Shown here piece by piece: positions 3,538 to 34,076 of a stretch of 64,000 nucleotides of DNA. Below the pieces are notes generated by a model, which saw only the letters and a program-made list of their open reading frames with translations, searched no databases and had not been told where the DNA came from. A program made the position numbers and the translations under genes. Each line of letters begins with the position of its first letter. Positions within the stretch are counted from its first letter, which is position 1. Origin of the DNA: Deltaproteobacteria bacterium (lineage in GTDB: Bacteria > Myxococcota_A > Polyangia > Haliangiales > Haliangiaceae); NCBI GenBank assembly GCA_020630875.1, contig JAHDIH010000002.1, positions 371,332 to 435,331 of the forward strand, written 5' to 3'.

Positions 3538-5364
3538 ATGTTGAAACCGCATTTCCGTTCTGACTTGGTAGCCACACCAGTGATTGGTGCAGATGGGGAA
3601 CAATACGTCGACGTTGCTGATCCAACAACGGGCAAATCGTTCCGCTTTTTCGAGGTAGAGTATTCGATCGCGATGGCAATGGATGGAAAGCGCAGTCTTG
3701 CCGGAGTTGCGGCTTGGGCCGGCGAAGAAATGGAACTGGACGTTCCAGAATCGGAGTTGGTGGGGCTGGTCGCAACCTTGAGAGATTTGGGGTACCTGCT
3801 GCCTGAAAGCAATGGGGGGCTGCGTCCTCTCATTGAAGACGACGATGCTGGTGAATTCGAGGGGCAGGCCACCAAGGTGGCGGATTCTGCTTCAACCGCA
3901 GCAATGCTTGCAGCAAGAGAGAAAGAGATACGTTCCGAATCAGGAGCGATGGAAATAACCAAGCCGGTAAAGATTGCCGATCTTGCTCATGAGCGAGCCG
4001 TTTCCGCACCTAACAGATTCCCTTCTGACCCACCCACCATAGATTTGAGTATTCAGGAAATCGCAAGACAATCTTCAAAGTCAGAATCCGACCTCGATTT
4101 TCAACGAACGACTCCGGAAATGGATAAGCCCGATCTCGCGAGCAGCCCGCTAGAGGAACTCACGGAACTCGATCCTTTGAAGGGAGTGAATTCTCCCATT
4201 TCTCGTCCAGAAATTCCGGAAATGCCGGAATTGCCGCCGCTTGGCTCGAAGGATCGCCTGCCAAGTCTGGCAGCAGCTGGATCAATGGAATCCCTACCCG
4301 ACATGGATGATGCTTTTGCACCGGAAGTGTCGGTTGATCTCAGCGATCATCTTCCTGTGGATGGGCAACACGTTCGCGACGCCGTACGTCAATCACAACA
4401 AATGCCGGCGTTAAAGCCCGAGCAAGTTACTCCAGACCCCATGCCGGTCGTAAAAGAACCGGCACCCGTGGCAGTTCATGAGCAGGTTCTGAAAGCATCA
4501 CCATCCGTACCCATGACCTCCGATGATGCAGATGTTTACGAGCCCACGGTTCACAAAAAGTCGAGTAAAGTGAGAAGCGGTATCATGGCTCTTTGCCTGC
4601 TTATTTCCGTCGCTGCTGGCATTTATCTTTGGAAGAACAAACATTGGCTGACAGGCAACTCACCAGGGGGCAGTGGTGAAATTACACAAATTGCTGATCC
4701 TGACAAATTGGGAGAGATGCCGGCAGATCTCGCAGACCCATCCGCCGCGACTAATGGAGAAGAAGCAACGAACAACACGGGCGTTCCGTTGGTCGAGACC
4801 AGTTCGCAACCTTCGTCGATCTTTGTGGAGGGCGTTAGCGATGTGGTTCATTGGAAAGTCAAAGACAACGAGGTGGTGAAGTCTGGAGATGTCGTTGCCC
4901 ATATTGGCAACACGGCCGCCCTGGAGCGTGAAGTCAAAAAGCTGACCGACAAAATCGAGATCGATTATGGCACTAGAATGAAGGGGTTCGTAGCCAAGAA
5001 ACGAACGGCAAAAATCGAAGAGTTAAAGAACAAGATCGCGGCCAAACAGAAAATGCTTGATCGCGCAAAGACCAAACTTTCGAAACGTACCGTAAGTGCG
5101 ACGTCTACTGGCCCCATAACGATCACTGTGGCTAGCGGCCAAAAAGTAGTGGCAACTCAAGCTACAGTTAAAATTGCTGACATTGCTTCTGCCGGAAAAG
5201 TACTGCAAGCAACGTTCCCCTACGCGGAGTTTACCGAAGGGCAAGAAGTCGACGTTGTGTTTGGGAAAGACAAAGGTACTTGCGTCGCTCCACAAGCGGG
5301 TAAAGTGCTTACTTGTGATGATTCAAGACTAAGCGCAGGTATTGCTATCCAACTCGCGAAGTAG
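3538..5364 (+). CDS. Membrane protein with PqqD-like N-terminus and HlyD-like C-terminus
   Basis: I chose the ATG at 3538 because GGAGAG (3524-3529), inside the mglA end, is well placed for it; an in-frame GTG lies 15 bases upstream. The roughly 608-residue product starts with an 85-residue segment (HFRSDLVATPVI..., YVDVADPTTGKSFRFFEVEYSIA, LDGKRSL-like repeat) resembling PqqD-type winged-helix domains found ahead of peptide exporters. A long acidic, Pro-rich disordered region follows to about residue 345. There is then one membrane segment (IMALCLLISVAAGIYLW) and a periplasmic part with a biotinyl-lipoyl/coiled-coil arrangement like HlyD adaptors (VVKSGDVVAHIGN, then a Lys-rich coiled coil). 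It follows mglA by four bases. A link to polarity or envelope transport is inference; no inner-membrane ABC partner lies beside it. Confidence 0.6.
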   Translation: MLKPHFRSDLVATPVIGADGEQYVDVADPTTGKSFRFFEVEYSIAMAMDGKRSLAGVAAWAGEEMELDVPESELVGLVATLRDLGYLLPESNGGLRPLIEDDDAGEFEGQATKVADSASTAAMLAAREKEIRSESGAMEITKPVKIADLAHERAVSAPNRFPSDPPTIDLSIQEIARQSSKSESDLDFQRTTPEMDKPDLASSPLEELTELDPLKGVNSPISRPEIPEMPELPPLGSKDRLPSLAAAGSMESLPDMDDAFAPEVSVDLSDHLPVDGQHVRDAVRQSQQMPALKPEQVTPDPMPVVKEPAPVAVHEQVLKASPSVPMTSDDADVYEPTVHKKSSKVRSGIMALCLLISVAAGIYLWKNKHWLTGNSPGGSGEITQIADPDKLGEMPADLADPSAATNGEEATNNTGVPLVETSSQPSSIFVEGVSDVVHWKVKDNEVVKSGDVVAHIGNTAALEREVKKLTDKIEIDYGTRMKGFVAKKRTAKIEELKNKIAAKQKMLDRAKTKLSKRTVSATSTGPITITVASGQKVVATQATVKIADIASAGKVLQATFPYAEFTEGQEVDVVFGKDKGTCVAPQAGKVLTCDDSRLSAGIAIQLAK

Positions 5365-5469
5365 CCGTTTACTGCGATAATGAATACGCAAACGCGTAAT
5401 CGTGTGCGCGCCGGTTGGCGTTCATTGTTCTGTAAATGCCTAATATCATGTCATGCAAGTGTGGCTTGA

Positions 5470-6537
5470 ATGTTGCAACCATTTAGTGACATGCAAATAG
5501 CGATCATTACAAACCCTAACTCTCGTAAGAATAAGGGCAGAAGCGATCGCGTATCAGCACTTCAAGACATCGTTGGTGACCACGGAACGGTTCACCAAAC
5601 CCAGTCAACTGACGAAATCAAACCACTACTTCGAGAGTTTCTGCAAAACAAGGCAGAGTACTGGGTGGCCGATGGGGGCGACGGTGCTTTGCACTGGATG
5701 TTGCGAGCAGCGATGGAAATATTTGAAGAACAAGGATTAAGCGCGAATGATGAGCTAACTCTTCCCATCGCAATGCTTCCAACGAAGGGAGGTACTATTG
5801 ATTTTGTTGCTCACAATGTTGGTTTGCAGCAAGATACCGAGTCTCTTCTAGTGAACCTTAGAGCAGCGCTGGAACGTGGCGCCGCAGTGAAAGAAAGTCT
5901 GATCGATTCGATTGCGATTAGTGGTTTGCAAGAAGTAGATGGAAAAGTCTTGCCGTTTCGAACCTTCGGATTCGCAGTGGCAGCATGCGGTGTGGGACAA
6001 AAATTTTTCGAGAAGTATTACGACCACAGCGATCCCAACCCGAAGACTATTGTAAAGATTGTTGCGAACGCGCTTGCTTCGATGCCCGCAGCAGTCACAC
6101 CGCTCAAAAAGATGCCCGGTGCCTCCTCTTTGGGGCGTTACGCTAGCGACTTGTTTGCTCCCGTCAATGCTCTCGTGGAAATGGATGGGACCACGCTACC
6201 CCACAACTCTTTTACAGGAGTGCATGTAGCATCCATGTCACTCAATCTTGGTGGCGTTTTTCATTTGTTCCCGAAGGCCGATCAGCCAGGAAAACTACAT
6301 GCTCTCGTAGGAGCTCCAAGCGCGATGACCATTGTGAAGAACTTACCTCGGATGGCCAAAGGGAAAGCTTTGAGAGGCAATGGGCTCATAGACCAAACTT
6401 GTGAAAACTTGTTTATTCGCTCCGAAGGAAAACTGCTAGCGCCCATCATTGACGGTGAAGTATACGAGAACGTGAGAGAGATGACGCTCTCCCTTGGACC
6501 GAGAATACGTGTGCCGCTGCCTAGTTCGGACAGCTAA
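5470..6537 (+). CDS. Diacylglycerol-kinase-family lipid kinase
   Basis: A 355-residue protein of the DAGK catalytic-domain family (YegS/BmrU/sphingosine-kinase type). The N-terminal nucleotide motif ITNPNSRKNKGR and the glycine-rich loop ADGGDGALHWML are present. The usual GGDGT threonine is alanine here. The later LPTKGGTIDFVAHNVGL corresponds to the family's P-GT-ND-A segment. It probably phosphorylates a lipid head group at the inner membrane, but the substrate cannot be told. The start could also be the in-frame ATG at 5491 (MQIAIITNP), which begins right at the first strand; neither has a clear ribosome-binding site. Its last 17 bases overlap the convergent small lipoprotein gene. Confidence 0.8.
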   Translation: MLQPFSDMQIAIITNPNSRKNKGRSDRVSALQDIVGDHGTVHQTQSTDEIKPLLREFLQNKAEYWVADGGDGALHWMLRAAMEIFEEQGLSANDELTLPIAMLPTKGGTIDFVAHNVGLQQDTESLLVNLRAALERGAAVKESLIDSIAISGLQEVDGKVLPFRTFGFAVAACGVGQKFFEKYYDHSDPNPKTIVKIVANALASMPAAVTPLKKMPGASSLGRYASDLFAPVNALVEMDGTTLPHNSFTGVHVASMSLNLGGVFHLFPKADQPGKLHALVGAPSAMTIVKNLPRMAKGKALRGNGLIDQTCENLFIRSEGKLLAPIIDGEVYENVREMTLSLGPRIRVPLPSSDS

Positions 6538-6799
6538 CTTTACTCGGCCCGTTTCCTTTTGTCAGGCAGTCGGCCTCGCAGCCCGCGTGTTTGCAGGCCT
6601 CTGCCTTTGTTTCGAAACACTGTTGCTTTGCTTGGTAAAAGCATTTGTCTCGTTCACCTTTATACTTCCATCCGCTACTGTGCTTGGATTTCTTCTCTAA
6701 GTAGGTGGGACCAGTATGGTCTTTCGCTTGAGGGCCATTGTGGGTGGCGCAACTGATGGTTAAAGAAGTAGTGATGAACAAAGTGATAATTAAACGCAT
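6521..6799 (-). CDS. Small Cys-rich putative lipoprotein
   Basis: Read from the ATG at 6799, this 92-residue product begins MRLIITLFITTSLTISC, a short lysine-free but arginine-bearing signal with a weak lipobox (TISC). The mature part carries six more cysteines in a small region (CFYQAKQQCFETKAEACKHAGCEADC), suggesting disulfides outside the cytoplasm. I do not recognise the family. The 3' end overlaps the lipid-kinase gene by 17 bases, and the 5' side faces the plus-strand gene at 6815, so a shared control region is possible. A longer version starting at 6826 would place nine residues before the signal and is less likely. Confidence 0.5.
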   Translation of the reverse strand: MRLIITLFITTSLTISCATHNGPQAKDHTGPTYLEKKSKHSSGWKYKGERDKCFYQAKQQCFETKAEACKHAGCEADCLTKGNGPSKVSCPN

Positions 6800-6814
6800 G
6801 GCACTAATACCGCA

Positions 6815-7405
6815 ATGGTGCCACAATGGGGTGCAGTGAAGAAAGCTACGTTTGTTGAAAAGGTTCTGGATCTATGGGTGACGACAGCCATCCCACTGAC
6901 TCAGGCGAATGTTCAGATACATACCAAAGCTTCAAGAAAAAAGATTAAGGTCTACTTAGACGAGATGCTGAACGACGGTATTTTGGACATCGATAGTGAT
7001 CACCGAGGAAATCTGATTTATACTGTTCCTGGTGCTCAGCGAGCTTCTGGACCGAAAACATTTTCTGAAAAAAAAGCTAGGAAAGACTTAACAGGCAGCA
7101 TCGGCAATGCGTTAGCCAAAAAAAGTCGCCCTAGTATGCAACCAAGAAGCGGAGAGAAGTCACCCGTTGCATCAGGACTACTTTCGATGGTTTTTGGCCC
7201 GCTTGGGTGGTTTTATGCGGGTAGTTACAAAGAAGCCGCAATCGGTAGTGCGGCGTTTTTAGCTGCGGGAGCGATACTTCCCAGTTTTTTGTTTGGGTTG
7301 ATAGCGGTTCCAGCGATGGTCGCTTCCGGCGCAGCCGGGGCACTCTACGCATTGCAGCATAATCGGCACGGGAAACGTAAAGCTTTAATAAGTAGCGACG
7401 AATAA
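6815..7405 (+). CDS. Winged-helix-like protein with C-terminal TM2-like membrane hairpin
   Basis: A 196-residue protein. The first 75 residues look like a small winged-helix fold (VEKVLDLWVTTAIPLTQANVQ, then KIKVYLDEMLNDGILDID). After a basic linker come two hydrophobic segments (VASGLLSMVFGPLGWFYAG and AAIGSAAFLAAGAILPSFLFGL) reminiscent of TM2-domain proteins, whose hairpin contains a G-x-x-G-x-x-x-F/Y-x-G pattern. The tail is basic and cytoplasmic. An alternative GTG start at 6836 has GGGG just upstream. Function is unknown; a membrane-tethered regulator is one possibility. Confidence 0.55.
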   Translation: MVPQWGAVKKATFVEKVLDLWVTTAIPLTQANVQIHTKASRKKIKVYLDEMLNDGILDIDSDHRGNLIYTVPGAQRASGPKTFSEKKARKDLTGSIGNALAKKSRPSMQPRSGEKSPVASGLLSMVFGPLGWFYAGSYKEAAIGSAAFLAAGAILPSFLFGLIAVPAMVASGAAGALYALQHNRHGKRKALISSDE

Positions 7406-7438
7406 ACCAGCCTTAACGGATTTTTTGTACCGATAAAC

Positions 7439-7467
7439 TTGAAGGTCGAACCCTCATAAAATACTGT
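7439..7467 (+). promoter_or_regulatory. Possible promoter of the OmpA-family gene
   Basis: TTGAAG at 7439-7444 lies 17 bases before TACTGT at 7462-7467, about 25 bases upstream of the GTG start at 7493. The -35 is good but the -10 matches only half the consensus, so the call is tentative. Confidence 0.3.
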
Positions 7468-7492
7468 AGGCCCAATAGTATTTGGGGGATTT

Positions 7493-28155: not shown

Positions 28156-29901
28156 GTGAATATTGTTAATCTATCGTGGGGGATGCGGTGGCTGTCAAAG
28201 ATAATTAGAAAGCGTAAGCGGCGGCAAAACAAGCGCTATTCGCTGGATGCAAAGCTTAACGTGAAATGCGCAAGTTGGGATAAATTCGCCGACCTTTTCG
28301 CTGCCGATATTTCAAGAGAAGGCATCTACATCAATAGTAAATCGCTCGCCCCAGTCGGAGAAGTGGTAGCGATTGAGCTGCAACTTCCTGAAGGGAAGAC
28401 GTTACCTCTCAAAGGCGTTGTAGTTCGATGCATCGATGTGGAGCTTGCGAGAAGACTTGGTAAGCCAGCAGGGATGGGGGTTCGTTTAGAACCGCCAAAA
28501 GGAAAAGATGCGGAAGTCTTCGCAAAAGTGCTTCAGGCGGCGCAACAAAAACTTCCCGCGCCAGGCCAGTACTTAACAGAACCCCGCTTTTCAACTGATC
28601 CAGGGACAGGAGAAGCTCTTGACTCATCTGTTGTCGCGGAATCCTCATCGAAGAAGCGCTCGAATGGACCCATTGCAAGAAGTGAAACGACGCCGCCTAA
28701 CTTTACGCGAAAGTCCGTAAAAAAAGACGAAGTGATTGTCGGGATTGATTTGGGGACGAGCTACTCCTCTATTGCAGCTTTGATTGATGGAAGTGTGGTT
28801 GTACTTCCAAGAGCATCTGGTGCCCACGCGACGCCATCTGCCGTATGGTATCCAGACAGAACTTCAAGAGCAATCGTCGGCAGGAAAGCGAAGGACAAAC
28901 TAAGTACTCGCTCCAGGGAAGTGGTAACGTCTCCTAAGCGTTTGCTTGGACGTAAGTACGACGACAAAGAAGTGCAACAATTTCTCGGGGCTGCCGCCTA
29001 TGAAAGTCAACGCGGTCCGGGGGAGCAACCGCTGTTACTCATTCATGAGCAACCCATAGCCATTCCGCAGGTAGCATCCCGAATTCTTGATAGCTTGCTG
29101 GAAGTTGGTGCGAAGCATTTGGGTAGCAGACCCCAGCGGGCTGTGATCTCAGTTCCCGTGACGTTTGGACCAGAGCGAGTCGCCGCGTTAAAGAAGGCTT
29201 GCATGCTAGCCCAGTTGGACTTAGTGGATATTGTTGACGAGCCATCTTCTGCGGCAATTGCAAACCGAAACGATTCAGCAATGAAAGGTTACGTCGGTGT
29301 TTACGACTTTGGTGGAGGGACTTTCGACTTCTCCGTTGTAAATACCAACGGCGGCTGTTTTGAAGTCATTTCGACGGCAGGTGATTCATGGCTCGGGGGA
29401 GATGATTTTGACAACGCCGTGGCTAGTGCTGTGGCGAATCAGTTTTGGAAAAAACACAATGTTGAACTCCGAAATGATGCGGTCGCTTGGTATCGACTTC
29501 TGCAAGCATCTGAAGGTGCTAAGATTGCGTTGACCGCCAAGGATACCGCCAACATATTTGTTCCAAAAGTTCACAACACACAAGCAGGGCAACTTGATGT
29601 TCATGTCACTATTTCTCGAGACGCCTTCCATGACCTATGTCAAGGGTTGTTTGAGCGAACGCTTGAGACGTGCACCGCTGCGCTCGAATTGGTTGATTTG
29701 AAGCCTGCGGATATGTCCGCAATTTTTCTAAGTGGTGGCACCACGTACATGCCAATGATTCGTAAGGAATTGGCGCGATACTTTGGTTGCCCCGTTCGAA
29801 GTGGCGTGCCACCCGAACACGCAGTTTGTCTTGGGGCCGCAATCCATGGAGCGGAACTGTCCCAGCGCGCCGATGCGACCTTGAAATCTGCACAATTCTA
29901 G
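28156..29901 (+). CDS. PilZ-Hsp70 ATPase fusion protein
   Basis: A 581-residue protein. The first 130 residues form a PilZ domain with both c-di-GMP motifs: RxxxR (R23 to R27 in [10 protein letters not shown]) and DxSxxG (D51 to G56 in DISREGIYI). After a Ser-rich linker (about 140-188) an Hsp70 nucleotide-binding domain starts: [10 protein letters not shown] (196-205), [24 protein letters not shown] and [11 protein letters not shown]. It ends shortly after the last conserved ATPase strand ([11 protein letters not shown]), so the substrate-binding domain is missing. PilZ-DnaK proteins are known in Myxococcus xanthus; the present one would couple c-di-GMP to an Hsp70-type ATPase. An internal ATG at 28183 could be used, but the PilZ residues are kept either way. 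Confidence 0.88.
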
Positions 29902-29947
29902 TGGGATTGTTTGACGAGTGAGGTTCCGCCTTCTACGCTTTGGCTTC

Positions 29948-31732
29948 ATGCAAATTCGATACAGTCTGCTACTCCTCCTTGTCGCCTCATGTGGTGGTAA
30001 GGGTGGCAAATCGCAACCGCCTAAGGAAATTACCGATTCATTGAAGCTAAAGGACAAGCCGGTCGCGCCAAAGCTTGAACGCAAGAAGCCTATGGATGGG
30101 CATCAGGAAGGGAATGCTTCTGATTTGCTCGATGTCATGGCAAAAGAAAACGCAAGGTGGATGAATGCTCCAGCCGGGGCTCTTCCGCCCATGTATTACC
30201 TTTCTTATCAGGTATTCGATGAGCGTTCGATAATTATCGAAGCGCAAAGCGGAGCCATTGTTACCGATCGAGACGATACGGACAGACAGCTGGATACCGA
30301 AGTGCGAGTGGGAAGTAAGCAGATTGACAACACAACCACTCTTAGTAGTGCAGGAGAACTGAATGCACCGATGACACGGAGGGGACGTCTGCCACTGTCA
30401 AACGACAACGCTGCTGCGATTGCCCATCACCTCTGGCTTGATACAGACCGACGCTATAAGGAAGCTCAACTCGCTTATCGTCAAGTCGAAGCAGACGTTC
30501 GAGTAAGAGCCAAAGACAACAGACCTCCCGACTTTGTGTCGGCTCCCAAAGAATACTTTGTCGGGAAAGAGAAGAAGGTTTCAATCGACAAGGCTAAGTG
30601 GACAGAGACTCTGAAGCAATGTTCCAAGCGTGTTCACAATGGTGTGGCGACTCGGGGGACTTGTCGAATCGAAGTAGAGAGAGTGACGTCCTACTACGTG
30701 AACTCCGAGGGAACCAAACTACAACAATCTAGGCTCCTTGCTCAGCTCACGATAGGCGCAGGAGTTAAGGCCGATGATGGGATGCAGCTGAGGCGAATGG
30801 AACAAGCTTTTGCAGAAGATGCCAAAGACCTATTGGACCAAGCAAAAATGGACAAAATGATTGACGTTGTCTCTAAAGATTTGTTGGCACTGCACAGTGC
30901 CCCCATTGTTGATCCTTATGTTGGTCCTGCCATTTTGCAAGGAAAAGCAGCGGCCGTATTTTTTCATGAAGTATTTGGTCATCGTATGGAAGGTCATCGG
31001 CAGACCAGTGACGAAAGTGGACAAACGTTTACTTCCAAAGTTGGCAAAGAAATCATGCCAACGTGGTTGTCGGTTTTTGATGATCCTAGTGTGACGAAAG
31101 CTAACGACTTTTTTCTAAACGGTTTTTATCGGTTTGATGATGAAGGAGTAGCTGCGCAGAGAGTAGAACTTGTGAAAAAGGGGAAGTTGACTAGTTTTCT
31201 GCAGGGAAGGCACCCGATCAAAGGATTTCCAACCTCCAACGGCCACGGGAGAAAACAACCAGGCGCATTTCCCGTTAGTCGTCAAGGTAACCTGTTTGTG
31301 ACCGCCGAGAAGACTATTGGAGAAACAGAACTTGAAAAAGCACTTTTGCAAGAAGTCAAAAGACAAGGCAAACCATTCGGAATGGTGTTTACTGAGATTT
31401 CTGGAGGATTTACCAATACTACAAGATTCCTGCCACAAGCATTTAAAGTAAACCCTGTCATGGCTTATCGCATCTACCCAGACGGACGGCGGGAGTTGGT
31501 TCGTGGGGTGGATATTGTAGGGACACCTTTAACTGCGTTGGCAAATATCATGGCGGCTAGCAACAAGCTCGAAACTTTTAATGGAATGTGCGGTGCGGAA
31601 AGTGGTTGGGTTCCTGTCTCAGCCTCGGCCCCGAGTTTGCTCTTGAAAAACCTGGAGGTAGAACGAGGATTTAAACCCATTGATAGACCTCCAGTTCTTA
31701 GCCCACCGACGATTACCAAGGAGACAAACTAA
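29948..31732 (+). CDS. TldD-like metalloprotease lipoprotein
   Basis: I place the start at ATG 29948, which gives a clean lipoprotein signal (MQIRYSLLLLLVASCGG); an in-frame ATG lies 30 bases upstream. The roughly 594-residue product carries the TldD/PmbA catalytic motif HEVFGHRMEGH (HExxxH: H340, E341 and H345). Late in the protein is FNGMCGAESGWVPVSASAP, whose cysteine matches the third metal ligand of TldD. The RELVRGVDIVGTPL...ASNKLETF segment is family-typical. E. coli TldD acts in the cytoplasm with TldE; here the type II signal predicts a lipidated, periplasmic form. The next gene overlaps by one base and encodes a TldE-like partner. The substrate is unknown. Confidence 0.85.
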   Translation: MQIRYSLLLLLVASCGGKGGKSQPPKEITDSLKLKDKPVAPKLERKKPMDGHQEGNASDLLDVMAKENARWMNAPAGALPPMYYLSYQVFDERSIIIEAQSGAIVTDRDDTDRQLDTEVRVGSKQIDNTTTLSSAGELNAPMTRRGRLPLSNDNAAAIAHHLWLDTDRRYKEAQLAYRQVEADVRVRAKDNRPPDFVSAPKEYFVGKEKKVSIDKAKWTETLKQCSKRVHNGVATRGTCRIEVERVTSYYVNSEGTKLQQSRLLAQLTIGAGVKADDGMQLRRMEQAFAEDAKDLLDQAKMDKMIDVVSKDLLALHSAPIVDPYVGPAILQGKAAAVFFHEVFGHRMEGHRQTSDESGQTFTSKVGKEIMPTWLSVFDDPSVTKANDFFLNGFYRFDDEGVAAQRVELVKKGKLTSFLQGRHPIKGFPTSNGHGRKQPGAFPVSRQGNLFVTAEKTIGETELEKALLQEVKRQGKPFGMVFTEISGGFTNTTRFLPQAFKVNPVMAYRIYPDGRRELVRGVDIVGTPLTALANIMAASNKLETFNGMCGAESGWVPVSASAPSLLLKNLEVERGFKPIDRPPVLSPPTITKETN

Positions 31733-33501
31733 TGTCGCGTTTAATACTTATTTTACTAGTTTTTTCCACTACTGCATCAGCAAAGTCTCTGGCAGCCGCT
31801 GGTGCTTCCAAAGCAATCACTCAAGAAGTTATTGATGCTGTGGCGCAAGAGATGAATCGAGCCTCCGTCGGCCTCCGCTTACCCGGCGCTCCAAAACCGT
31901 ATTTCATCAGTTACAAAATTACCGAGGTTGACGTAAGCGACGTGAGTGCGTCACTAGGCGCGGTGACAGCGAAACAAGATCGGCACTTTGTATCGATCGA
32001 AGCCAAGGTGCGAGTAGGGGACTATTCGTTCGATAACTCCAACTACGTGGTGCCAGATGCCGCAGGGATGGATGGAGAAGCACAAATTACGCTCCCCATT
32101 GACGCCACGCCAAAGTCGGCGAGACGAGCCGCATGGCTCATCACAGACGCCGCTTACAAAGAAGCTCTAATCCAGTTGCGTGCCAAGAAAGAGGCAGGGG
32201 TTAGTGGAGTTTCGGTACCGTCTCTTTCCCAATCTAAATCGGTAGTAGGAAAGTTCAATCAGAACGTCCAGCCAAAGGAAAAGATCAGCGAGCTAGCTAA
32301 ACTCGCGGAGTCCGTTTCTGGCGAGTTTTCCAAGTATCCTCATATTCGAGACTCAAGAGTTTCCTATACGAGTTTTATCGAGCGGAGGTGGTATCTCAAT
32401 ACGGAAGGAACCAGCGCAAGAGACGTCCGGCGGGTTAGCGGAGTGGTGGTAACCGCAACTTCTCTAGCGAAGGACGGACAAGAACTGGCGGACTTTGTGA
32501 CGCACTACGATCAGAGTATTCTCGGGCTTCCCAAAGCCGCGGCATTGAAGAAAGAAGCGGCGCAAATTGCAAGCAATCTGCAAAAACTATCGAAAGCACC
32601 ACGTTCGGATGCCTACTCAGGACCAATACTTTTTGAAGGCCAGGCGGCTGGCGCTATGGTCAGGCACGGATTAGCTCGACATCTCGGTGGTACTCCATTG
32701 CCCGTGGGAATGGCTCCGCAGTCGGCAAAATTGTTCGGTGGTGCGTTTCATAGCAAGGTCGGCATGAGAGTGATGCCGACGCATGTCACAGTGATTGACA
32801 ACCCCACTGAAGGGAACGCTTCTATTGGCGGATACGCTTTGGATGATGAGGGCGTGGCGGCACAAAAAGTCGTAGCGATAAAAGATGGCAAGCTAAAGTC
32901 GCTACTCAGCAGTCGAACGCCGTTGAAAGCAAAAGGTTCAAGCAATGGGCACGCAAGGCGGGTAGGACAAGGTGGCGTTTACCATGGCAGTGCTACCAAC
33001 CTAACGTTGTCTTCTAAAAAGGGTCTCACCTCCGCCAAGTTGAGAAAGAAGTTTCTGGCCTTGATAAGAAAAGAAGGACTTGAGTTTGGTATCGTAGTTA
33101 AGAAAATTGACGACGCTGCTGTTACTTCCGTAGCGGAATACTCTCGAAGAGAGTTGCTGCGACTTATCAAGATCTCTGATTTGTCGTCTCTACCACCAGT
33201 TCTACTGGCTTATCGAGTCTATCCAAACGGCAAAGAGGAGTTGGTTCGAGGGCTGGGCATCAAACCTTTTGATGCTAAAAATTGGCGAAACTTGGCAGGG
33301 GTCGGAAGAAAAGCATTCACGTACAGTTATCTTGCTTCGGGCGAGCCCTACATTGCGCACAAAGTAAGAGGTACTTCCGAAGGATTTGTTCCTTCAGGCG
33401 GAATCGAGAGTACCGTGAAGTCCCCAGATTTACTGTTCCCAGAAATCGACCTCGATAGCAGAGGTTTCGCAGTAATGCCGGCTAAGATTGCCAAACCGTG
33501 A
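31732..33501 (+). CDS. TldE/PmbA-like exported protein lacking the metal site
   Basis: A 589-residue protein with a signal peptide (MSRLILILLVFSTTASA). It shares the TldD family outline with its upstream neighbour: YPNGKEELVRGLGIK, PSGGIESTVKSPDLL, FEGQAAGAMVRHGLARHLGG. However, the position of HExxxH reads VRHGLARH, without the metal Glu, and the cysteine of the MCG motif is absent. It is thus the expected inactive partner of a TldD/TldE-like heterodimer. The start codon overlaps the upstream stop (TAATG), so equal synthesis is expected. Both proteins are exported, which is unusual for the family. Confidence 0.78.
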   Translation: MSRLILILLVFSTTASAKSLAAAGASKAITQEVIDAVAQEMNRASVGLRLPGAPKPYFISYKITEVDVSDVSASLGAVTAKQDRHFVSIEAKVRVGDYSFDNSNYVVPDAAGMDGEAQITLPIDATPKSARRAAWLITDAAYKEALIQLRAKKEAGVSGVSVPSLSQSKSVVGKFNQNVQPKEKISELAKLAESVSGEFSKYPHIRDSRVSYTSFIERRWYLNTEGTSARDVRRVSGVVVTATSLAKDGQELADFVTHYDQSILGLPKAAALKKEAAQIASNLQKLSKAPRSDAYSGPILFEGQAAGAMVRHGLARHLGGTPLPVGMAPQSAKLFGGAFHSKVGMRVMPTHVTVIDNPTEGNASIGGYALDDEGVAAQKVVAIKDGKLKSLLSSRTPLKAKGSSNGHARRVGQGGVYHGSATNLTLSSKKGLTSAKLRKKFLALIRKEGLEFGIVVKKIDDAAVTSVAEYSRRELLRLIKISDLSSLPPVLLAYRVYPNGKEELVRGLGIKPFDAKNWRNLAGVGRKAFTYSYLASGEPYIAHKVRGTSEGFVPSGGIESTVKSPDLLFPEIDLDSRGFAVMPAKIAKP

Positions 33502-34076
33502 CCCGCGTAAATCTGCATAGCAAAATCGAAGGAAGTAGAGCGAACGGGCCAGGAAATCGTTACGTCGTTTGGTTTCGCGGATGCAGCTTAGGGTGTCCTG
33601 GTTGCTTCAACCCGTCGACTCACTCTCCGATTGGTGGCGATTCAGTAGATACCTCGGCCATAGCGCGAGCGGTTCTCGACGGAGATTACGACGGACTCAC
33701 AATATCTGGTGGTGAACCCTTTGAGCAGCCACAAGCTTTGCTTGCGTTGGTTAAGGAGGTCTTCCCCCAAAAAGGAATTATCGTCTTTTCCGGTTACTCG
33801 GAGTCAGAAATAATCGAGCAAGAATTAGGTAGTGAGATTCTACGTTTCGTTGATGTTTTGATTGATGGGCGCTACGAACGGGCCGAAAAAATCGCAACAG
33901 AGCTACGCGGCTCGAGCAATCAGGAGATTCGGCTCTATACCGACAGGTACGTCCGTGAAGACATAACGGCTACACCTGAACTTGAGATACGAATTGGAAG
34001 CGATGGGTTGGTTACTGTAAGTGGCGTTCAACCAATTCCTCTGGGACGGATTAGGCAAACTCAAGAAAAACCGTAA
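33498..34076 (+). CDS. NrdG-like radical SAM activase
   Basis: A 192-residue protein starting at GTG 33498, overlapping the upstream stop. The cluster-binding CxxxCxxC is at C29, C33 and C36 ([14 protein letters not shown]), the pattern of glycyl-radical-enzyme activases and related short 4Fe-4S proteins. SAM-binding features follow ([20 protein letters not shown]). It would generate a 5'-deoxyadenosyl radical. No NrdD-type or other glycyl-radical enzyme is in the window. Its position directly after the TldD/TldE-like pair and 58 bases before clpP makes a shared transcript likely. Its own target is not evident. Confidence 0.8.

Follow-up and report, generated by a model that had tools for sequence, protein, structure and literature searches.

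Predicted export of a TldD/TldE-like pair widespread in Myxococcota, and a possible second origin of its inactive subunit

TldD and TldE are usually pictured as a peptide 'pencil sharpener' of the cytoplasm, and enzymes of this type are known chiefly from inside cells. Two coupled genes of a Haliangiaceae bacterium, taken in an initial annotation for an unusual, exported TldD/TldE-like pair, raise the question of whether enzymes of this type also operate in the cell envelope and, if so, in what form and on what substrates. We analysed these genes within a stretch of 64,000 nucleotides (the window, whose numbering is used for the locus throughout) and in comparison with relatives from Myxococcota and beyond. 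Our search of the open-access literature found no description of an exported TldD/TldE.

The first gene (29948..31732, + strand, open from the ATG at 29948) encodes a TldD-like catalytic subunit of 594 amino acids, P0001. Its type II (lipoprotein) signal peptide, MQIRYSLLLLLVAS (29948..29989, + strand), leads up to a predicted lipobox cysteine, Cys15 (29990-29992, + strand; LVAS before the cysteine, Gly at +2), and an alternative in-frame GTG start at 29918 would extend the n-region only. The metal/catalytic motif HEVFGH occupies residues 340-345 (30965..30982, + strand), supplying H340, E341 and H345, and the third metal ligand is C548 of an MCG motif (31589..31591, + strand). In a joint alignment these residues coincide with H262, E263, H267 and C454 of E. 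coli TldD, which are its metal ligands and catalytic glutamate (PMC5810440), and 80 of 80 TldD-like relatives retain all four. The metal motifs and signal first read from this gene are upheld. E270 of the E. coli enzyme is also retained, as E348; the residues of its clamp tether, K456-D272, are replaced by A550 and H350 in P0001, and the cleft may differ from that of E. coli TldD as a result.

The second gene (31732..33501, + strand, open from the ATG at 31732) overlaps the first in the sequence TAATG (31730..31734, + strand), in which the TAA of P0001 and the ATG of P0002 share base 31732. Its product, the TldE-like subunit P0002 (589 amino acids), begins with a Sec (type I) signal peptide, MSRLILILLVFSTTASA (31732..31782, + strand), which ends in an AxA site. 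Opposite H340, E341 and H345 of P0001 it has R, H and R, and opposite C548 another R, while its relatives mostly have R, Q, P and a gap, respectively, at these four positions; the Sec signal, start-stop coupling and lack of metal motifs described in the initial annotation are thus all borne out.

PF19289 is recognized in P0001 (E 1.3e-27) and P0002 (E 8e-16), and PF19290 gives weak or moderate matches to both (E 7e-7 for P0002); the N-terminal domain PF01523 has no Pfam match in either. The nearest solved structure to P0001 by sequence is E. coli TldD (PDB 5nj5, E 5e-11), and its NCBIfam scores of 42 (PRK10735), 21 (PRK11040) and 95 bits (NF040952) compare with cut-offs of 513, 438 and 635. 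AlphaFold2 models built from family alignments reach pLDDT 93.7 and pTM 0.91 for P0001 minus its first 43 residues, and pLDDT 86.2 and pTM 0.85 for P0002 minus its signal, and Foldseek aligns the former to 5njf_A and 5nj5_A (E about 1e-33, TMt 0.77-0.78), and the latter to 5nj5 chains (E about 1e-23). TldD/TldE structures are the only PDB entries that match either model significantly, over nearly whole chains and including the N-terminal parts that Pfam does not recognize. The modelled fold therefore supports well the placement of both proteins in the TldD/TldE (M103) superfamily, to which the predicted metal site of P0001 and the metal-less P0002 also conform.

Signals at the head of both chains recur throughout the family. 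Scored by a purpose-written script rather than SignalP, 124 of the 135 relatives whose start could be used were assigned a Sec or lipoprotein signal (70 of 80 TldD-like and 54 of 55 TldE-like proteins). As the script chooses, among starts near the domain, the one that looks most like a signal, and so favors hydrophobic starts, the decisive comparison is with canonical TldD and TldE from related genomes and E. coli, of which only 3/51 received a signal by the same procedure. The predicted export signals of the family are therefore not due to chance. Wherever the start is covered in the window's family, the TldD-like chain has a signal of the lipoprotein type, the lipobox is conserved, and the residue at +2 is G, P, S or similar, never D. 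In E. coli, a residue other than D at +2 predicts an outer-membrane lipoprotein, and by that rule an outer-membrane location is predicted here. Lipidation would be typical of the window's family, but in many lineages outside it the TldD-like chain has a plain Sec signal. Seven solo TldD-like proteins of this clade (L063, L064, L065, L134, L135, L136 and L137) have the metal motif and no recognizable signal, and are perhaps back in the cytoplasm.

Far from being unusual, as initially supposed, the exported TldD-like/TldE-like type is widespread in Myxococcota and occurs in some Bacteroidota and Ignavibacteriota. The TldD-like gene is found in 29 of 29 same-family genomes besides that of the window, where a TldE-like gene adjoins it in nearly all cases and contig ends explain most exceptions. 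Across an even sample of Myxococcota, P0001 finds a match at E <= 1e-30 in 102 of 237 genomes (~43%); P0002 has matches in 104 genomes, 52 of them with at least two, a count that includes extra TldD-like copies. In a sample centered on Niabella the TldD-like gene is present in 14 of 148 genomes, and the pair is adjacent in Niabella itself, in another Bacteroidota genome and in an Ignavibacteriota genome. Many lineages carry the TldD-like protein only: in 24 genomes its gene has no TldE-like neighbor and no TldE-like member elsewhere, several of these genomes also being without a detectable canonical pair, and such solo proteins presumably work alone. Two further candidates for solo status, at loci L104 and L109, were rejected because each genome has a TldE-like gene on another contig, and their TldD-like sequences do not figure in the tree discussed below. 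In one genome (G307) the two genes likewise lie on separate contigs (L161 and L162), indicating that the pair is not always adjacent, and the arrangement is similar in G146, G181 and G275.

The best available evidence that the two halves cooperate is a natural fusion, in a genome sampled around Niabella (G370, locus L160, positions 4027-7485), in which a single frame of 1153 amino acids carries the TldE half after the TldD half via a short linker. The fused protein opens with its one signal, at the N-terminus, and lacks another ahead of the TldE half, which speaks against a sequencing error in which only a stop was lost. At the level of sequence, this arrangement supports a heterodimer, and it offers a ready-made single-chain construct for structure work.

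The relationship of the pair to canonical TldD/TldE proved the least expected result. A 90-sequence tree has a branch with 100% support that sets the exported proteins, TldD-like and TldE-like together, apart from canonical TldD and TldE, and a careful tree of 39 sequences recovers this split at 100/100; both trees cover bacterial members, and with an archaeal TldD (NF040952) as the best NCBIfam match their rooting is provisional. A single ancestral division into D and E was rejected on the 39-sequence subset (lnL difference 51.9, AU p 0.0075), with a p-value that is somewhat optimistic because the hypothesis was framed with the first tree already in view. Profile comparison agrees: exported E scores 769 against exported D, compared with 144 and 146 against canonical E and canonical D, respectively, and canonical E scores 596 against canonical D. 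Further, the N-terminal motifs RVG...DN and W..TD..Y are shared by many exported chains, D and E alike, and are absent from all canonical chains. The notion of the exported genes as canonical TldD/TldE furnished with signals was rejected on the trees and profile comparison, and the exported pair departs from the canonical equivalogs in its NCBIfam scores, in having no PF01523 match, in carrying signals and in the apparent descent of its TldE-like chain. The resemblance to TldD/TldE, as first annotated, holds for the fold and metal site, but the pair belongs to a separate clade whose inactive partner seemingly arose independently. Taken together, the trees, AU test and profile comparison suggest that the active/inactive pair probably arose twice; these sequence comparisons support, without settling, a second origin for the inactive subunit, as concerted evolution of the adjacent exported D and E genes might instead explain their grouping. 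Solo TldD-like proteins lie on one side of a 94% branch in the 90-sequence tree, and are not together in the 39-sequence tree. We consider evenly balanced the fuller proposal that a heterodimer of one active and one dead subunit evolved twice, once in the cytoplasm and once in the envelope, where its source would be a solo TldD-like protein that was already exported. On this proposal, the envelope form is a tethered protease of unfolded peptides spread through Myxococcota and part of Bacteroidota, the solo proteins have remained active homodimers, and at least one lineage has fused the pair.

As to function, we assign a probability of about 0.6 to the reading that the pair forms an envelope-anchored heterodimeric metallopeptidase of TldD/TldE type, engaged in the general turnover of unfolded periplasmic peptides. 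P0001 would leave the cytoplasm by Sec, receive its lipid at Cys15 and probably be tethered to the outer membrane, bringing the only metal site of the pair (H340/E341/H345/C548), while P0002, sent out on a Sec signal of its own and predicted to be catalytically dead, would complete a hollow periplasmic heterodimer with it. As in E. coli TldD/E, unfolded peptides might enter this chamber via a narrow pore and be shortened N-terminus first. The complex would most likely serve to break down unfolded peptides or pieces of protein in the envelope at large. This role appears the most economical in light of the wide distribution of the family and of the E. coli enzyme, which acts on unfolded peptides with no sequence preference (PMC5810440). 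Beyond the window's family, neighbor clustering, which was dominated by spurious reverse-strand ORFs, found no neighbor gene shared across lineages, and presence across families without a shared neighbor is more in keeping with a general role than with a single dedicated substrate. A protein in which Pfam recognizes a PilZ domain fused to an HSP70 (DnaK-like) ATPase region (28156..29901, + strand) ends 46 bases before the ATG of P0001, and an HSP70-like gene precedes the pair in 8 of 20 same-family or same-order regions, some of which are cut off upstream. The clpP and clpX genes downstream in the window were dropped as general operon members, being absent near the pair in relatives.

In a more specialized role, the pair would be dedicated to maturing a particular exported peptide, of RiPP-like or signalling type, given that the leaders of several RiPPs are removed by TldD/E, and would possibly be linked with the NrdG-like radical-SAM protein (33498..34076, + strand, PF13353) whose start overlaps the tldE-like stop in the sequence GTGA. 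The latter gene follows the tldE-like gene in 15 of 20 same-family or same-order regions; in other lineages no such gene was seen beside the pair. Its product is closer to NrdG than to RiPP-modifying enzymes (TIGR02491 107.8 bits, under a cut-off of 126.1); neither the window's genome nor 27 relatives (28 genomes in all) yielded a class III ribonucleotide reductase (NRDD), so that this orphan activase probably activates something else. As no precursor-like gene was seen, in a survey that did not cover small ORFs systematically, and the described removal of RiPP leaders by TldD/E occurs in the cytoplasm, we consider dedicated maturation unlikely. Peptidase chemistry is itself not certain, since N-deacetylases are reported among TldD/TldE-family members (Vobruba et al. 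2022), and the altered clamp-tether residues of P0001 might likewise suit an envelope N-deacetylase or amidase that acts on a small molecule or cell-wall fragment. That the ligands, catalytic glutamate and fold of P0001 equal those of the peptidase makes such an activity rather improbable.

The heterodimer, too, can be questioned, as P0001 might form a homodimer in the manner presumed for its solo relatives, leaving P0002 as a separate binding protein. The 24 genomes with this clade's TldD-like protein and a TldE-like member nowhere are compatible with that arrangement, as is a Sulfolobus TldD homodimer reported as active (cited in PMC5810440); conserved adjacency, the stop/start overlap in the window, the fusion at L160, and the separation of solo from paired TldD-like proteins in the 90-sequence tree weigh against it, and we judge it about as unlikely as dedicated maturation. 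Most improbable of all is that neither protein is exported, and that the hydrophobic N-termini are misassigned starts or cytoplasm-facing membrane anchors. The signal calls do rest on a simple script, and 10 TldD-like relatives, including the solo branch of L063-L065 and L134-L137, are without a signal; independent signals on both partners across phyla, lipoboxes conserved in the window's family and the near absence of signals in canonical controls weigh against such errors.

If the preferred reading of an envelope peptidase is true, a widespread exported branch of the superfamily would provide the envelope with a chambered, ATP-independent peptide shredder. If, in addition, the inactive partner arose twice, then comparison of solo, paired and fused forms could reveal what the dead subunit contributes, a question that extends from TldE to pseudoenzyme partners at large.

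Among known systems, the closest counterpart is the heterodimeric metalloprotease TldD/TldE (PmbA) of E. coli (MEROPS M103; PDB 5NJ5, 5NJ9-5NJF), with which the exported pair shares the full-length fold, HExxxH and Cys at equivalent positions, and a metal-less partner. Unlike that enzyme, it is predicted to be exported, has no match to the N-terminal PF01523, has other clamp-tether residues, is about 100 residues longer and has an inactive partner of apparently independent origin. The archaeal zinc metalloprotease TldD (NF040952) is the top NCBIfam match for both P0001 (94.7 bits) and P0002 (47 bits), although both scores fall far under its cut-off of 635 bits. The window's own genome also holds a canonical pair (G000 C11:436043-438717), likewise adjacent genes with and without the metal site and of the same superfamily, which differs in having no signals, in the presence of PF01523 and in being a distant relative, at about 45 bits to P0001. 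Finally, TldD proteins at L142 (G002 C488), L144 (G049) and L070 (G041) have a twin-arginine (Tat) motif and a cysteine as possible lipobox, and adjoin a TldE without a clear signal. These, too, are apparently exported pairs, possibly a second kind in which TldE is carried along by Tat; they differ from the pair described here in belonging to the canonical clade, and in bearing the Tat motif and possible lipobox on TldD only.
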